64,000 nt of DNA. Origin: Meghimatium bilineatum (Eukaryota; Mollusca; Gastropoda; Stylommatophora; Philomycidae). Shown here piece after piece: positions 15,930-64,000 of this stretch; within the stretch, counting starts at the first letter, position 1, and each line of letters starts with the position of its first letter. Below the pieces are notes generated by a model. It was not told where the DNA came from. It was given only the letters and a program-made list of their open reading frames with translations, and did not search any database. The position numbers and the translations under genes were made by a program. The stretch covers positions 29,591,860-29,655,859 of the forward strand of contig CM067309.1 in the NCBI GenBank assembly GCA_034231615.1, in the 5' to 3' direction.

Positions 15930-16035
15930 CAATTGTCAGTGCTACGCCACTTACCTTTATGTGAATCTACTGTCAGTGCTACGCCACTTATCTTTATGTG
16001 AATCTACTGTCAGTGCTATGCCACTTACAGGGTTC
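15930..16035. repeat. ~37-bp triplication
   Basis: Three copies around GTCAGTGCTACGCCACTTAC with CTTTATGTGAATCTACT. Confidence 0.75.
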
Positions 16036-34290: not shown

Positions 34291-34522
34291 TCATATAAAA
34301 TCTTTCATGGGTAACTTTTTTTTCATGATATTCCCGTAACTGTCTTCTGCTACGACAGTTACTGTAGTGATGTTGGATGGCATATTGCTGACCTCTGACC
34401 TGCGAAGTGTGAATTCTGCTGGTGGAGCATTGCTAAGAAATTCCCAGTGGTGAAACACAGCGCCCTCTGGATCAGTGCGGAGTTCAATAATACGAAGACC
34501 TGATGGTGACCGGACACACAAT
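34291..34522 (-). CDS. host gene exon E, possible last coding exon
   Basis: On the minus strand a classical acceptor (pyrimidine-rich CTCTCTTCTCCTTCAACAG) precedes the exon. It completes a codon split by the previous exon (phase 2), then reads LCVRSPSGLRIIELRTDP, a WEFLSNAPP block, TTVTVVAEDSYGNIMKKK and LPMKDFI before a TGA at 34291-34293. Alternating hydrophobic segments suggest a beta-sandwich. No good donor is visible, so this may be the terminal coding exon. A cryptic donor (AAAA|GTTACC) would remove the last few codons. The ORF shows codon-like composition unlike the AT-rich surroundings. Confidence 0.6.
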
Positions 34523-37421: not shown

Positions 37422-37582
37422 GCCTGTTGTGACTATGTTCTTAAAACCTGCCTGTCTGATAAAGTGACAAAAGGGGTCTTTTTCTTATATTATTCTTGCA
37501 TTCATTATAAACACCCCAACCACATCTATATTGCCTCTAATTTCCCACTTTCCAGTTTGTTTATAATGAATGCACGCATACT

Positions 37583-37708
37583 TGTGTGAAATCGTAACAC
37601 AACTGCTGATGATCTATGGAACAAAATGTTAATAATGTTACATACTTGTGAAATCGTAATGCAATTGTTGATGAGCTATAGAACAAAATGCTAACAATGT
37701 TACATTTC
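37583..37708. repeat. 62-bp unit, two copies inside PLE-A right arm
   Basis: The units contain ACTTGTGAAATCGTAA, CTGATGATCTATGGAAC and AAAATGTTAA. They match 48475-48650 and are oriented the same way. The left arm of the same element lacks them: its sequence runs directly from GCAT to TTTCTCTTTTAC. Confidence 0.85.
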
Positions 37709-47144: not shown

Positions 47145-48407
47145 CCAATTCCCCCTCAGAGCGCCGTCGCTTCTACTTGCTGACACCTAGAGCGCCGTCG
47201 CGTTGCTTTTTTTACTTGTGTTGTTGCGATCGATATGACTTTTTTGTGTGTGCTGGGTCTATTAAAACCATGACCATTGCGTAGATCCGTGGTTTAGCTT
47301 CCTGTTTTATGTTTAATCTAAGAGATTGGAAAAAATATGGATTTATTACAATTTTTTTTTAATTAGCAAATTATTAGACCTAGTTTTGGAAATGGAAGAT
47401 ATTATTCATATGTACACTGATGATGACAGCTGTAGTTACGATGGAAATATGCACGATGTAGGTAATTTGCGTATCAAATATAACGTGGAAAGTGACAGTG
47501 ATGTTCCTTGTTAGATAGGCCTAATGTTTCCGACAAAGAGATGGACATGCGTGGCACTCATTGTGACATCGCAAATTTCGCTGTAGTGATGTAGTTTTTC
47601 GAGTAGAAGTTGAGAGTTTTGTACAAAACATTGGGTCTGTACATAATCTTGATGAGATTGCCACACGTTATGAATACTTTAGCATCATTGTCAATGATGA
47701 GTTTATCAATTTGCAGCCGATCGGACAAATTTGTATGTAATATAACACACAGAACAAACAAGGAAAGAAGACATCAGCAACCGCCATTGAAATAAAACTT
47801 CATTTTTTAAATTTATATTATGATGGACCTGTGTATTCTGTTTGAGTATGGCATGTACTGGAGTACAGATGACAGGTTCCTGCCGAAGACGGCTGTGTCG
47901 GGCCATTGGCGCAACTAAAATGGCGACACAACGCATTTCCATTCTCTGGACTACATCTTGCTGGAAATCTACTAGGACAATTGTCCTGCTACAAGAGACA
48001 TCCAGCGGGAGTTTGAGAATGAACGCTGAAGAAGAAGATGACAGGTTCAACGTTTTGGGTATCTCACCCTGTTTGGAAATAAGGGTATTTGAGAATATAT
48101 CTCAATATTTTCGTCTCAATATGACTCCTCTACTCAACACCCCAAAGGTAAAAAAATAATTTCCCCCACATTATGTCGAGTTTGACAGTTTATTATTTAA
48201 AACATATATGTATTAAATTATCTTTGATATAGGTTTATGCAAGACTATTCATTTTTCTATTGATCTGCCAAGTCTGAGTATGATATGATGAATAGTTTGA
48301 AAGAACATGCAATTTTGTCATAATCGTATCCATATTTTGGAGGAGTTGTGCCCCTTGCCTTAGGGATCAGGGATTGACAATTGGGAAATCTCATACGGGT
48401 GAAAGGG
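47145..48407 (+). mobile_element. second piggyBac-like element in the same LINE-Z
   Basis: Intact TTAA at 47141-47144 and 48408-48411. Removing 47145-48411 rejoins the LINE-Z sequence (ENDGIII to KEREPFNLR). Inside, plus-strand frames give an acidic N-terminus (EMEDIIHMYTDDD, VESDSDV) and, near 47670-47740, EYFSIIVNDEFI then FAADRTNLYVI, resembling the conserved segment at the start of the piggyBac core. It is frameshifted and interrupted by SINE-A at 47880-48035. Confidence 0.7.
47880..48035 (+). mobile_element. SINE-A with 13-bp target duplication
   Basis: Flanked by AGATGACAGGTTC at 47867-47879 and 48036-48048. This is the clearest family member: head TGCCGAAGACGGCTGTGTCG, CAACTAAAATGGCGACACAA, TGGACTACATCTTGCTGGAA, TGTCCTGCTACAAGAGA, GTTTGAGAATGAACGCTG and a GAA tail. 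Confidence 0.9.
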
Positions 48408-48411
48408 TTAA

Positions 48412-48456
48412 TATGGGACTGAAGGAGAGAGAGCCATTTAATCTTAGATGATTACA
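48412..48456 (+). pseudogene. second LINE-Z copy, last remnant
   Basis: KEREPFNLR corresponds to the GGLFNLSR segment of LINE-Z at 9615-9640. Homology then stops against the 62-bp array. Confidence 0.5.
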
Positions 48457-48474
48457 ATTGTGAGATCATACTAT

Positions 48475-48650
48475 GTTACATACTTGTGAAATCGTAACGC
48501 AACTGCTAATGATCTATGGAACAAAATGTTAACAATGTTACATACTTGTGAAATCGTAACGCAACTGCTGATGATCTATGGAACAAAATGTTAACAATGT
48601 TACATACTTGTGAAATCGTAACACAACTGCTGATGATCTATGCCAGTGTG
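48475..48650. repeat. 62-bp repeat spanning the exon D splice donor, three copies
   Basis: On the minus strand the unit runs CATAGATCATCAGCAGTTG, CGTTACGATTTCACAA then GTATGTAACATTGTTAACAT and TTTGTTC. The first (rightmost) unit begins inside exon D. Each unit contains CAA|GTATGT, a plausible 5' splice site. Two further units lie at 37583-37708. Confidence 0.85.
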
Positions 48651-48800
48651 CTCCAGCATCTTGGAAACTGATCTCTGGTTTAACTGCAACTTCAGAAGCT
48701 GAAGCTGACTCCTCAGGAGAGTTGGGGAGTGTTGAAGGAATTGTATTCAGTGATGTGAAAGATGCAGCTGAAGTAAGGGACTCAGGAGATGATCTATGTT
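48608..48800 (-). CDS. host gene exon D, Ser/Pro-rich
   Basis: The acceptor (T-run, then TGCCTACTCACAG) is on the minus strand. The split codon from exon C is completed to Glu (phase 1), followed by HRSSPESLTSAASFTSLN, STLPNSPEESASASEV, KPEISFQDAGAHW and HRSSAVVLRFH. The proposed donor CAA|GTATGT at 48608/48607 leaves phase 2, which exon E requires. The last part of the exon (48608-48643) belongs to the 62-bp repeat, and two more copies of the same donor follow in the intron. The region is low-complexity and Ser-rich, likely disordered. The acceptor is well supported; the donor choice is less certain. Confidence 0.55.
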
Positions 48801-49719
48801 CTGTGAGTAGGCAAAAGACATATTTTTTTTTTTTAGAAAAACACAAAAATGTAAGAAAAATTAATTTTCTAATCATTACCGAGATAAATAATACTGGAGA
48901 TAGAGAGCTGCGGAGAGCAATGATCTCCTACGCCAGCCGGTATGACACTGATGATGATGACGACCGAGATAAATTTGTAAGGTTTCTAAAATATACTTAA
49001 TCACAAAGTTGTATTTTTAGATACACTTTCAGATTATTATCCACAATTCTGACTTACTACAACTCTAACTCCTCTCAACCCTGTAAAAGATGGAACACAG
49101 ACATCAAAGAAGCCACAGGAACAAGCTTACAAACCGCACACAAGAAGTCCAAAGAACTCTTCCACTCCTGATGCTGCAAGGCAAACAAGTGCCACAGCGT
49201 ACAGATAGATAGTCCACTGAGCCGCTAAAATCGACATTTTGGAGGCCCCATATGCCAAAAGCCGTTTAAATCTACATTATGATATGAATTTACTATATTG
49301 AATTATAAACATCACGATGTCCGTAAAATCAAATGAACTGTTCCTATCTGTGGTACTTCCGATCCAGAGATAATCTATCTATAAAGGCATGCTTCGTTAG
49401 AAATAATAAAGGTTGTGTTTGAGCACTAATTTCACATAAACGTGTAACATATTGCTACTTGTATTTCTATCTATCTATTCGCTTAAACCCTTTGTTGCCT
49501 TTCAGCATCAGGGGTAGAAGAGTTTTCTTAATCGGCCCTCTTGTGTACTGAGTATATTGTGGAATTTGTGGCCTCTTTTATTTCAGTGGTCCATCGTTTT
49601 TGAGGTCGCTTTGTATTTCATGCTACTTGTATTTGAAGTAATGAAATCTAGATACCCTCAATGTTTTACAACTAGTTAGGCTTTTGAAATGTACCAAAAT
49701 ACCTTAGGTAATACGTTAG
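48801..49719. other. intron sequence, nothing recognised
   Basis: AT-rich. GACTTACTACAACTCT at about 49050 matches the left flank of the 21-bp array at 50637, and AGCATCAGGGGTAGAAGAG at 49504 nearly matches 11551-11569. No gene is seen. Confidence 0.4.
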
Positions 49720-55029: not shown

Positions 55030-55243
55030 CCTTGGAGACTGTGCCAATGTCATTTCCATCTTTATTTATGTTCATCTGACTCAAGTTCTCCCCTTCTTGG
55101 ATTGTGTGCCATGTTTCGCTACCATCATAGTTTTTCACAGAAAAAGTCACAGTTGTGGGAACTGATGACTGCTTGAAGCCAGACTCAATACGCACAACCA
55201 AAGGAGGTGGGGCAATGTATGCTCTTTCACAAGAAATGGGTGT
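55030..55243 (-). CDS. host gene exon C, beta-rich
   Basis: The acceptor (AATTTTTTTCTCCAG) is on the minus strand. It starts in phase 0 with TPISCERAYIAPPPLVVRIE, then SGFKQSSVPTTVTFSVKNYD, GSETWHTIQEGENLSQM and DIGTVSK. The donor is CCAAGG|GTACTC, leaving phase 1. Alternating hydrophobic residues around VVRIESG and TVTFSV suggest a beta-sandwich fold, but I do not recognise the family. Both splice sites and the phase fit exons B and D. This is the best-supported exon. Confidence 0.7.
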
Positions 55244-58715: not shown

Positions 58716-58866
58716 CTAGAGAAGAAGAGGTATCATCAATGCTGCTAGTGGAAGGTGTCCTGGACATCTCAGAGTTGCTGCTGCCCCCACTGCTGTAACG
58801 CTGCCTATGTGGACGTTCTGATCGGTGGTGATGTCTGCCCTTACGTCTGTGCTGAACAGTGAAAAC
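58716..58866 (-). CDS. host gene exon A, basic then Ser-rich
   Basis: On the minus strand CCAATCACAG precedes GTTTTC. The exon reads VFTVQHRRKGRHHHRSERPH, RQRYSSGGSSNSEMSRTP, STSSIDDTSSSL and ends with one base of a split Gly codon. The donor AG|GCAAGT is the standard non-canonical GC donor. The frame is also open further upstream through three 33-bp repeats (GYFEHSPYQS), so the exon could be longer and the acceptor false. The protein is basic and Ser-rich, probably disordered. Confidence 0.55.
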
Positions 58867-58871
58867 CTGTG

Positions 58872-58965
58872 ATTGGTAGGGTGAATGTTCAAAATAGCCA
58901 GATTGATAGGGTGAATGTTCAAAAAAGCCAGATTGATAGGGTGAATTTTCAAAATAGCCAATGTT
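58872..58965. repeat. 33-bp triplication upstream of exon A
   Basis: Three copies of GATAGGGTGAATGTTCAAAA with TAGCCAGATT, open in the exon A frame on the minus strand. Confidence 0.8.
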
Positions 58966-59470: not shown

Positions 59471-62400
59471 ATATCAACACATGGGTGGTTCACATTGATA
59501 GTGTAATATGTCAACACAAGGGTGGTTCACATTGATAGTGTAATATGTCAACACAAGGGTGGTTCACATTGATAGTGTAATATGTCAACACAAGGGTGGT
59601 TCACATTGATAGTGTAATATGTCAACACAAGGGTGGTTCATATTGATAGTGTAATATGTCAACACAAGGGTGGTTCATATTGATAGTGTAATATGTAAAC
59701 ACAAGGGTGGTTCACATCGATAGTGTAAGATGTCAACACAAGGGTGGTTCATATCGATAGTGTAATATGTCAACACAAGGGTGGTTCACATCGATAGTGT
59801 AAGATGTCAACACAAGGGTGGTTTACATCGATAGTGTAAGATGTCAACACAAGGGTGGTTCATATTGATAGTGTAATATGTCAACACAAGGGTGGTTCAC
59901 ATCGATAGTGTAAGATGTCAACACAAGGGTGGTTCATATTGATAGTGTAATATGTCAACACAAGGGTGGTTCATATTGATAGTGTAATATGTCAACACAA
60001 GGGTGGTTCACATTGATAGTGTAATATGTCAACACAAGGGTGGTTCATATTGATAGTGTAATATGTCAACACAAGGGTGGTTCACATTGATAGTGTAATA
60101 TGTCAACACAAGGGTGGTTCACATTGATAGTGTAATATGTCAACACAAGGGTGGTTCATATTGATAGTGTAATATGTAAACACAAGGGTGGTTCACATCG
60201 ATAGTGTAAGATGTCAACACAAGGGTGGTTCATATCGATAGTGTAATATGTCAACACAAGGGTGGTTCACATCGATAGTGTAAGATGTCAACACAAGGGT
60301 GGTTTACATCGATAGTGTAAGATGTCAACACAAGGGTGGTTCATATTGATAGTGTAATATGTCAACACAAGGGTGGTTCACATCGATAGTGTAAGATGTC
60401 AACACAAGGGTGGTTCATATTGATAGTGTAATATGTCAACACAAGGGTGGTTCATATTGATAGTGTAATATGTCAACACAAGGGTGGTTCACATTGATAG
60501 TGTAATATGTCAACACAAGGGTGGTTCATATTGATAGTGTAATATGTCAACACAAGGGTGGTTCACATTGATAGTGTAAGATGTCAACACAAGGGTGGTT
60601 CACATTGATATTGTAAGATGTCAACACAAGGGTGGTTCATATTGATAGTGTAATATGTCAACACAAGGGTGGTTCACATTGATAGTGTAAGATGTCAACA
60701 CAGGGGTGGTTCATATTGATAGTGTAATATGTCAACACAAGGGTGGTTCACATTGATAAGTGTAAGATGTCAACACAAGGTTGGTTCACATCGATAGTGT
60801 AAGATGTCAACACAAGGGTGGTTCACATTGATAGTGTAAGATGTCAACACAAGGGTGGTTCACATTGATAGTGTAATATGTCAACACAAGGGTGGTTCAC
60901 ATTGATAGTGTAAGATGTCAACACAAGGGTGGTTCACATTGATAGTGTAAGATGTCAACACAAGGGTGGTTCATATTGATAGTGTAATATGTCAACACAA
61001 GGGTGGTTCACATCGATAGTGTAAGATGTCAACACAAGGAAGGTTCACATTGATAGTGTAATATGTCAACACAAGGGTGGTTCACAGTGATATTGTAAGA
61101 TGTCAACACAAGGGTGGTTCATATTGATAGTGTAATATGTCAACACAAGGGTGGTTCACATTGATAGTGTAAGATGTCAACACAGGGGTGGTTCATATTG
61201 ATAGTGTAATATGTCAACACAAGGGTGGTTCACATTGATAAGTGTAAGATGTCAACACAAGGTTGGTTCACATCGATAGTGTAAGATGTCAACACAAGGG
61301 TGGTTCACATTGATAGTGTAAGATGTCAACACAAGGGTGGTTCACATTGATAGTGTAATATGTCAACACAAGGGTGGTTCACATTGATAGTGTAAGATGT
61401 CAACACAAGGGTGGTTCACATTGATAGTGTAAGATGTCAACACAGGGGTGGTTCATATTGATAGTGTAATATGTCAACACAAGGGTGGTTCACATTGATA
61501 AGTGTAAGATGTCAACACAAGGTTGGTTCACATCGATAGTGTAAGATGTCAACACAAGGGTGGTTCACATTGATAGTGTAAGATGTCAACACAAGGGTGG
61601 TTCACATTGATAGTGTAATATGTCAACACAAGGGTGGTTTACATTGATAGTGTAAGATGTCAACACAAGGGTGGTTCACATTGATAGTGTAATATGTCAA
61701 CACAAGGGTGGTTCATATTGATAGTGTAATATGTCAACACAAGGGTGGTTCACATTGATAGTGTAAGATGTCAACACAAGGGTGGTTCATATTGATAGTG
61801 TAATATGTCAACACAAGGGTGGTTCACATTGATAAGTGTAAGATGTCAACACAAGGTTGGTTCACATCGATAGTGTAAGATGTCAACACAAGGTTGGTTC
61901 ACATTGATAGTGTAAGATGTCAACACAAGGGTGGTTCACATTGATAGTGTAAGATGTCAACACAAGGGTGGTTCACATTGATAGTGTAAGATGTCAACAC
62001 AAGGGTGGTTCACATTGATAGTGTAATATGTCAACACAAGGGTGGTTCACATCGATAGTGTAATGTCAACACAAGGGTGGTTCACATTGATAGTGTAATA
62101 TGTCAACACAAGGGTGGTTCACATTGATAGTGTAAGATGTCAACACAGGGGTGGTTCATATTGATAGTGTAATATGTCAACACAAGGTTGGTTCACATTG
62201 ATAGTGTAAGATGTCAACACAAGGGTGGTTCACATTGATAGTGTAAGATGTCAACACAAGGGTGGTTCACATTGATAGTGTAAGATGTCAACACAAGGGT
62301 GGTTCACATTGATAGTGTAAGATGTCAACACAAGGGTGGTTCATATTGATAGTGTAATATGTCAACACAAGGGTGGTTCACATCGATAGTGTAAGATGTC

Positions 62401-63660
62401 AACACAAGGGTGGTTCACATTGATAGTGTAATATGTCAACACAAGGGTGGTTCACAGTGATATTGTAAGATGTCAACACAAGGGTGGTTCATATTGATAG
62501 TGTAATATGTCAACACAAGGGTGGTTCACATTGATAGTGTAAGATGTCAACACAGGGGTGGTTCATATTGATAGTGTAATATGTCAACACAAGGGTGGTT
62601 CACATTGATAAGTGTAAGATGTCAACACAAGGTTGGTTCACATTGATAGTGTAAGATGTCAACACAGGGGTGGTTCATATTGATAGTGTAATATGTCAAC
62701 ACAAGGGTGGTTCACATTGATAAGTGTAAGATGTCAACACAAGGTTGGTTCACATCGATAGTGTAAGATGTCAACACAAGGGTGGTTCACATTGATAGTG
62801 TAAGATGTCAACACAAGGGTGGTTCACATTGATAGTGTAATATGTCAACACAAGGGTGGTTCACATTGATAGTGTAAGATGTCAACACAAGGGTGGTTCA
62901 CATTGATAGTGTAAGATGTCAACACAAGGGTGGTTCATATTGATAGTGTAATATGTCAACACAAGGGTGGTTCACATTGATAGTGTAAGATGTCAACACA
63001 AGGGTGGTTCATATTGATAGTGTAATATGTCAACACAAGGGTGGTTCACATTGATAAGTGTAAGATGTCAACACAAGGTTGGTTCACATCGATAGTGTAA
63101 GATGTCAACACAAGGTTGGTTCACATTGATAGTGTAAGATGTCAACACAAGGGTGGTTCACATTGATAGTGTAAGATGTCAACACAAGGGTGGTTCACAT
63201 TGATAGTGTAAGATGTCAACACAAGGGTGGTTCACATTGATAGTGTAATATGTCAACACAAGGGTGGTTCACATCGATAGTGTAATGTCAACACAAGGGT
63301 GGTTCACATTGATAGTGTAAGACGTCAACACAAGGGTGGTTCATATTGATAAGTGTAAGATGTCAACACAAGGTTGGTTCACATCGATAGTGTAAGATGT
63401 CAACACAAGGTTGGTTCACATTGATAGTGTAAGATGTCAACACAAGGGTGGTTCACATTGATAGTGTAAGATGTCAACACAAGGGTGGTTCACATTGATA
63501 GTGTAAGATGTCAACACAAGGGTGGTTCACATCGATAGTGTAATATGTCAACACAAGGGTGGTTCACATTGATAGTGTAATATGTCAACTCAAGGGTGGT
63601 TCACATTGATAGTGTAATATGTCAACACAAGGGTGGTTCACATCGATAGTGTAATATGTC
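59471..63660. repeat. 37-bp satellite, about 113 copies, with higher-order repeats
   Basis: The unit is TCAACACAAGGGTGGTTCAC followed by ATTGATAGTGTAATATG. Variants: CAC/TAT-TG/CG, AATATG/AAGATG, GGTTGG for GGGTGG, CAGGGG for CAAGGG, and a 38-bp ATAAGTG form. Rare variants recur at fixed spacing: GTAAACAC at about 59694 and 60175 (13 units), CAGGGG at 60701 and 61183 (13 units plus one base). It is non-coding. Confidence 0.95.
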
Positions 63661-64000
63661 CACATTACTTCCAGCATAATATTTTTTATTGTGTTGCAAT
63701 GTAAATTGTGCAAGTTATTGATAATATTTCGACATGTAGTGACATCATTTGTTCAGTTATTTTTCTATCTTTTAATCTATTAATATATCTATTATATTAA
63801 TCTCATCTATTTATCTTATCTATATATCCAATCTATGAAATCTATTCCATTATCTCCCCATTTGAACTCATCTCATTATGACCTGGTCTGATCTAATCTA
63901 TATCTCTACCTGCGTGCATGTGCATATGTATGTATATATCCATCTATGTGTGTGTGCATGCATGCTTCCGTACGTACGCATATGTATGCATCTATCGATC
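63661..64000. other. low-complexity CTAT-rich sequence
   Basis: TCTAT/ATCTA-rich simple sequence with GT and TATG patches. There is no gene. Confidence 0.7.

Follow-up and report, generated by a model that had tools for sequence, protein, structure and literature searches.

We detected a tandem array of identical 5' splice sites at the end of exon D of a minus-strand gene in the window (i.e., the whole analysed stretch of 64,000 nucleotides of Meghimatium bilineatum contig CM067309.1). Based on its unit structure and on the conservation of the exon end in a paralogous gene, we conclude that this array is very probably a mirage minisatellite built from the end of exon D and its 5' splice site. 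The gene of the window is referred to as C12 and its paralog as C7, and a slash in a motif marks the exon/intron boundary. The features on which the argument rests are the following.

58716 to 58866, minus strand: exon B, with a GC donor (AG/GCAAGT); a C7 counterpart was found.
55030 to 55243, minus strand: exon C, phase-1 end, donor AAGG/GTACTC; 35 of 69 aligned residues identical in C7.
48608 to 48800, minus strand: exon D, 193 nt, last 35 nt within the array; open, with a phase that fits exons C and E; 33 of 63 aligned residues identical in C7.
48473 to 48642, minus strand: 62-bp minisatellite of 2.74 units, composed of the exon D end, the donor and the first intron bases (TRF; genome search).
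48602 to 48607, minus strand: donor D1, CAA/GTATGT, at the conserved boundary (intron phase and position identical in the C7 paralog).
48540 to 48545, minus strand: donor copy D2, predicted from the sequence to give a frame shift and an end in exon E if used.
48478 to 48483, minus strand: donor copy D3, predicted from the sequence to give a stop before the D/E junction if used.
37580 to 37704, minus strand: two more units inside a dispersed repeat of the D–E intron, with donors at 37645 (GTATGT) and 37581 (GTATGC); three repeat copies are without them.
34291 to 34522, minus strand: exon E including the TGA stop; 42 of 76 aligned residues identical in C7.

The host is a real minus-strand gene of the PF12044 (Metallopep) family, with exons that run collinearly into the window. 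With 100 kb to the right of the window added to the analysis (164 kb in all), pieces of the PF12044 profile were found in order on the minus strand, covering profile positions 2-59 (E 0.03), 59-114, 125-185, 259-302 and 307-346, the last of which contains SLHELGHTFDLAHT (HExxH motif). Three of these five pieces are singly above the family cut-off, and the genome search marked four C12 pieces above it. A third PF12044 locus, at C12:36.86M, was rejected, being under the cut-off and with a translation that looks like a matrixin. Exons B to E gave no profile match, Pfam and PDB searches with exons D and E gave nothing meaningful, and no D/E relatives in viral contigs were found among 12 pattern matches. 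The phases of consecutive exons fit: the phase-1 end of exon C is continued by AA at the start of exon D, whose own end at CACAA is in phase 2, and from there exon E is open as far as the TGA. The initial annotation had proposed that the first donor gives exactly the phase needed by exon E, and the junction from 48607 to 34522 indeed stays in frame to the TGA that ends this exon. In both paralogs the phase-1 end of exon B is not matched by the start of exon C, which is in phase 0 (58716 and 55243 in C12), and therefore an exon between B and C is probably missing from the gene model, with exons D and E unaffected. The exon B donor, of the GC type in C12, reads AG/GTCAGT in C7.

The array at the end of exon D has a period of 62 and 98% matches (2.7 copies in TRF). 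It had been described as a 62-bp unit occurring three times; the repeat and its period are real, but the array consists of two full units and one 46-bp unit, the latter being part of the exon boundary itself, rather than of three full ones. The array unit takes in the last 35 nt of exon D (48608-48642) and spans the exon/intron boundary, so that donor 48607 is itself overlapped. The units are 97–98% alike, with one or two differences each among the three, and a 34-base piece of the unit has four matches in the window (with at most three mismatches), compared with none in 100 shuffles. The first intron bases of the minus-strand donors lie at 48607, 48545 and 48483, exactly the positions that had been estimated, and each donor reads TTTCACAA/GTATGTAA (CAA/GTATGT). 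This is a moderate donor (ad hoc score of 3.5, the best possible being ~9), and since the score is equal in all three copies, the 9-mer itself favours none of them. An 11-mer of the unit, GATGATCTATG, occurs at 48570-48580 and 48632-48642 and also near the start of exon D, at 48788-48798; it was not seen at the start of C7 exon D.

The paralog points to the donor that is conserved. A search of the animal's own genome with the D+E protein returned, besides itself, C7:26902228-26902422 and C7:26890802-26891038, while a fifth match, on C1 (E 0.88), contains a stop and was set aside. In 30 kb of C7, eight exons pair between C12 and C7, and seven of these (exon B left out) give 283 identical residues out of 420 aligned, a Ka of 0.21, a Ks of 2.07 and a pS of 0.70, i.e., near saturation. 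The joined exons C, D and E of C7 are open to the stop with phases as in C12, and the end of exon D, HW(H/Y)RSSAVVLRFH, is common to both paralogs. As C7 shares the D/E boundary and its phase, sequence comparison identifies 48607 as the conserved donor of exon D. The exon boundary at which the array lies is thus authentic, and the view that exon D is real and ends at the first of the three donors is borne out by a matching C7 exon that ends at equal intron phase.

Considering these findings, we propose that a tandem duplication took in the final 35 nt of exon D together with its 5' splice site and the adjoining first bases of the intron, the copies being separated by 16 nt of other sequence, which would have resulted in identical donors 62 nt apart in the intron. 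The spliceosome probably uses the exon-proximal donor 48607, because no other donor keeps the conserved C-terminus, and the donor copies would be tolerated products of repeat turnover, at most weak decoys.

A donor array was also detected at the end of C7 exon D. The exon ends with ATTTCATAA/GTAAGT, followed by three diverged copies, TTTAATAA/GTAAAT, TTTCACAA/GTAAAT and TTTTATAA/GTAAAT, spaced by 67, 57 and 67 nt (3.9 copies with 71% matches in TRF), and the genome search gave a single candidate, which was scored and is the array itself. Besides, a second C7 array is opened by the donor GCATACAG/GTAAGG of the exon at profile positions 259-302. This array of 44 bp x 18.2 (C7:26911977-26912766, 790 nt) contains 28 GTAAG, of which 22 belong to an AGGTAAG; the usual spacing is 22 nt. 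In C12, the counterpart of this exon is without a donor array and is followed, 33 bp downstream, only by a 31-bp array that looks unrelated. Over the two paralogs, arrays overlap three of the 14 donors of seven exons, and one more donor lies 4–5 bp from an array; none of 16 acceptors is overlapped and one lies 5 bp from an array.

The most unusual point is that the donor arrays of two old paralogs have a boundary in common. The array may predate the gene duplication and have been inherited by both paralogs, a reading that we regard as a serious candidate, albeit with somewhat less than an even chance. Both arrays overlap the equivalent donor, starting ~35 nt (C12) and ~29 nt (C7) upstream of it, the unit lengths of 62 nt and 67/57/67 nt can be related (67 + 57 = 124 = 2 x 62), and among the seven exons with donors, exon D alone has an array over the donor in both paralogs. 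On the other hand, the intronic unit parts of C7 and C12 are without significant similarity (nine comparisons, p 0.19–0.95), and another C7 exon gained its donor array independently; because of this further donor array in the gene pair, separate origins at exon D are quite possible. Common ancestry is thus suggested by unit length and start point and not by sequence. Minisatellites normally turn over fast, and an ancestral array would have survived a duplication near silent-site saturation (Ks ~2), which an ordinary minisatellite should not. If the boundary arrays are ancestral, this raises the question of why an array persists so long at a splice site.

The intronic units also hold other splice-like signals. 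In each of the four (at 48.5 and 37.6 kb), a T-rich stretch leads up to an AG, and a donor follows 30 nt later (32 nt in the unit of donor 37581); the gap from D1 to the first of these AGs is only 32 nt. By an ad hoc score, these AGs fall in the 90th to 92nd percentile of the AGs of the strand, compared with at least the 98th for the acceptors of exons C, D and E and the 91st for that of exon B. The 30-nt stretch is in frame in three of the four units and would add ten residues. That the units could act as 30-nt proto-exons or as signals of new introns is speculation. It is likewise doubtful, at perhaps one chance in a few, that the array is ancestral and has been kept at the exon D boundary of both paralogs as a maintained reserve, made up of spare or decoy 5' splice sites or of 30-nt proto-exons that stay in frame, and not as transient repeat noise.

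The use of the donor copies in C12 would have different predicted outcomes. Splicing from D2 would add 62 nt to the exon and shift the frame, with a stop in exon E at nt 630 of the joined exons C, D and E (junction at 469), the predicted product reading on over 210 residues in C+D+E to this stop. The usual decay rule would not catch a D2 stop in exon E. The predicted stop after D3 lies 57 nt before the D/E junction and would be borderline for this rule. In C7, a stop follows at once past the first donor, both at exon D and at the 259-302 exon. It might be argued that the copies are functional and that competing donors regulate exon D, through a frameshifted C-terminus (D2) or a truncated, perhaps decayed mRNA (D3). 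All three copies share one donor word, both C12 outcomes would be compatible with such a role, and extra donors are present at this boundary in the C7 paralog as well. Nevertheless, we consider this function improbable: the C7 copies read GTAAAT and are weaker than the GTAAGT of the exon, the C7 reading frame closes immediately past the first donor, and RT-PCR in amphioxus suggests that comparable mirage arrays leave regular splicing undisturbed (PMC3087553). Use of the exon-proximal donor, with the copies tolerated, would be the sensible expectation.

The origin of the unit was approached by a search of 1.6 Gb of genome with 48415-48830 as query. The unit was found at two places only, the exon-D array and 37.6 kb (two candidates, each of them scored), with five unit copies, all in the D–E intron; it does not have the many genome copies of a widespread satellite or transposable element, whereas a widespread unit is what the initial annotation had named as contrary to its proposal. 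The units at 37580-37704, overlooked in that annotation, have the same sense as the exon-D array and bring the donor copies of this intron to five (48607, 48545, 48483, 37645 and, as GTATGC, 37581). Three other copies of the dispersed repeat in the window are without units at the corresponding points (35160/35159, 51087/51086 and 52359/52360), and the two units were inserted into the dispersed repeat 11 kb further along the D–E intron. They are mutually 85% alike over 67 columns and more diverged than the exon-D units, and therefore the two arrays are not simply recent copies of each other; the 37.6-kb units may have been copied from the exon-D array or from an earlier form of it. The dispersed repeat at 37405-37964 matches its copy at 35334-34879 by 99.4% over 175 bp left of the units and by 87.5% over 281 columns right of them, and a conversion tract ending at the 37.6-kb insertion is possible. 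One CpG of the unit (AACGCAAC) varies across 48473-48642 and 37580-37704: two units have CG, two have CA and one has TG, a pattern that resembles repeated decay of a methylated CpG. The left flank of the exon-D array (48300-48413) is a high-copy repeat (40 scored of 3762 first-look candidates) that ends ~60 bp before the array.

Because the exon end predates the paralogs while the C12 units are 97–98% alike, the exon end is older than the homogeneous array seen today, which gives a direction from exon to array. This agrees with the earlier proposal that the array was derived from the host exon/intron boundary, given an exon end conserved in C7 and a unit that is not widespread. A codon difference (GTG in the exon, GCG in the C12 intronic units, GTT in C7) was rejected as proof of direction, as it involves a CpG on the minus strand that may simply have decayed. 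The converse origin, in which the repeat is a dispersed element from which the exon end was captured, could draw on the two units that sit within the dispersed repeat at 37.6 kb, yet it is contradicted by the three repeat copies without units, by the restriction to two places in the genome and by an exon end common to a paralog at Ks ~2, and we regard it as very unlikely. A true gene on the plus strand, with exon D an accident, is the least probable explanation and is likewise already contradicted: a 128-aa plus-strand open frame spans the region, but its part at 48883-48963 resembles dispersed repeats elsewhere in the 164 kb, and it is the minus-strand exon D that is conserved in C7.

Arrays of this kind are known, if sparsely described. 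In amphioxus, "mirage" minisatellites in Adh3 and in the globin genes BflGb6 and BflGb9 have a unit that spans an exon/intron boundary, with many units carrying splice signals, and the boundary duplicated in BflGb9 is the 3' one of its exon (PMC3087553). The exon-D array is alike in its tandem unit across such a boundary, in the BflGb9 case likewise the 3' boundary of the exon. Unlike the amphioxus arrays, it belongs to another genome and gene, lies at the equivalent boundary in two old paralogs, and has two units inserted elsewhere in its own intron. In humans, the CBS gene has a 31-bp VNTR (c.1444_1467+7) of 16–21 copies that is polymorphic in people, and whose unit runs, by its notation, from the exon end to intron base +7, as in the exon-D array (PMC2630376). 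This VNTR has far more units than the three of the exon-D array and is comparable with the second C7 array. An association of the CBS VNTR with reduced CBS activity was reportedly found by Lievers et al. in 2001. According to the literature on intron gain, a tandem duplication crossing an exon/intron border can pass splice signals to a new intron; the border-crossing duplication is alike in the exon-D array, in which it amounts to a sequence potential only (an AG, 30 nt and a donor). The exon-D and C7 arrays are thus further members of the mirage kind already described. A literature search of partial coverage, which did not target this point alone, found nothing on such arrays common to paralogs. 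Identical serial 5' splice sites represent a natural experiment in how the spliceosome chooses among equals, for which the C12/C7 gene pair offers donor series of three, four and about two dozen, and the arrays also bear on whether repeats feed intron and exon gain.

Repeat arrays are abundant around the gene: they make up 19.3% of the 164 kb, and for 24% of positions the nearest array is no more than 40 bp away, so that an array beside an exon is in itself unremarkable in this genome. In a local test, a strong donor occurred in 4 of 230 strand-units (115 arrays, both strands) against 1.35 expected, which is not convincing; for one of the strong-donor arrays, 15934-16028, no adjoining exon was recognisable by eye. 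Genome-wide, three CAGGTAAG in series gave 2425 matches versus 1240 for the reversed pattern, although single words numbered 38,611 versus 51,140, i.e., a ~2.6-fold enrichment of the series; these counts are of matches and not of arrays, with one control word each. For CAGGTGAG in series the numbers were 3646 and 1289, a few long arrays making up much of the matches listed. On the other hand, AAGTATGT, the motif of the exon-D array, was not enriched in series genome-wide (7680 versus 12,254 reversed), which speaks against a general rule of donors in repeats.

The first 20 CAGGTAAG arrays among the matches listed were examined with their 5' side, 10 stretches from 10 arrays by Pfam and the other 10 by eye. 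Pfam gave one match over the cut-off, one weak and unrelated match and none for eight stretches. The match over the cut-off concerns a donor array that starts at C1:83288889, directly after a cytosolic 5'-nucleotidase exon (Pfam 1e-22, PDB 1.4e-27), and this array is an independent mirage in the same genome. At C1:133517960-133518330, a 33-bp donor array follows a 45-nt stretch with a PDB match at E 1.4 only, which we take to be a probable acetylcholine-receptor exon. For the other 18 of these arrays an adjoining exon was not identified.

Further arrays accompany other parts of the host gene. A 36-bp x 8.2 array at 83950-84238 (in window numbering extended beyond 64000) starts 4–5 bp after the donor of the 84.4-kb exon, its units ending in a T-rich stretch and an acceptor-like TAATAG; C7 is without an array there. 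Only 5 bp separate the acceptor of exon B from a 30-bp x 3 array outside it (58871-58960), and a 37-bp minisatellite of 113 copies occupies more than 4 kb (59474-63664) between the 64.3-kb exon and exon B.
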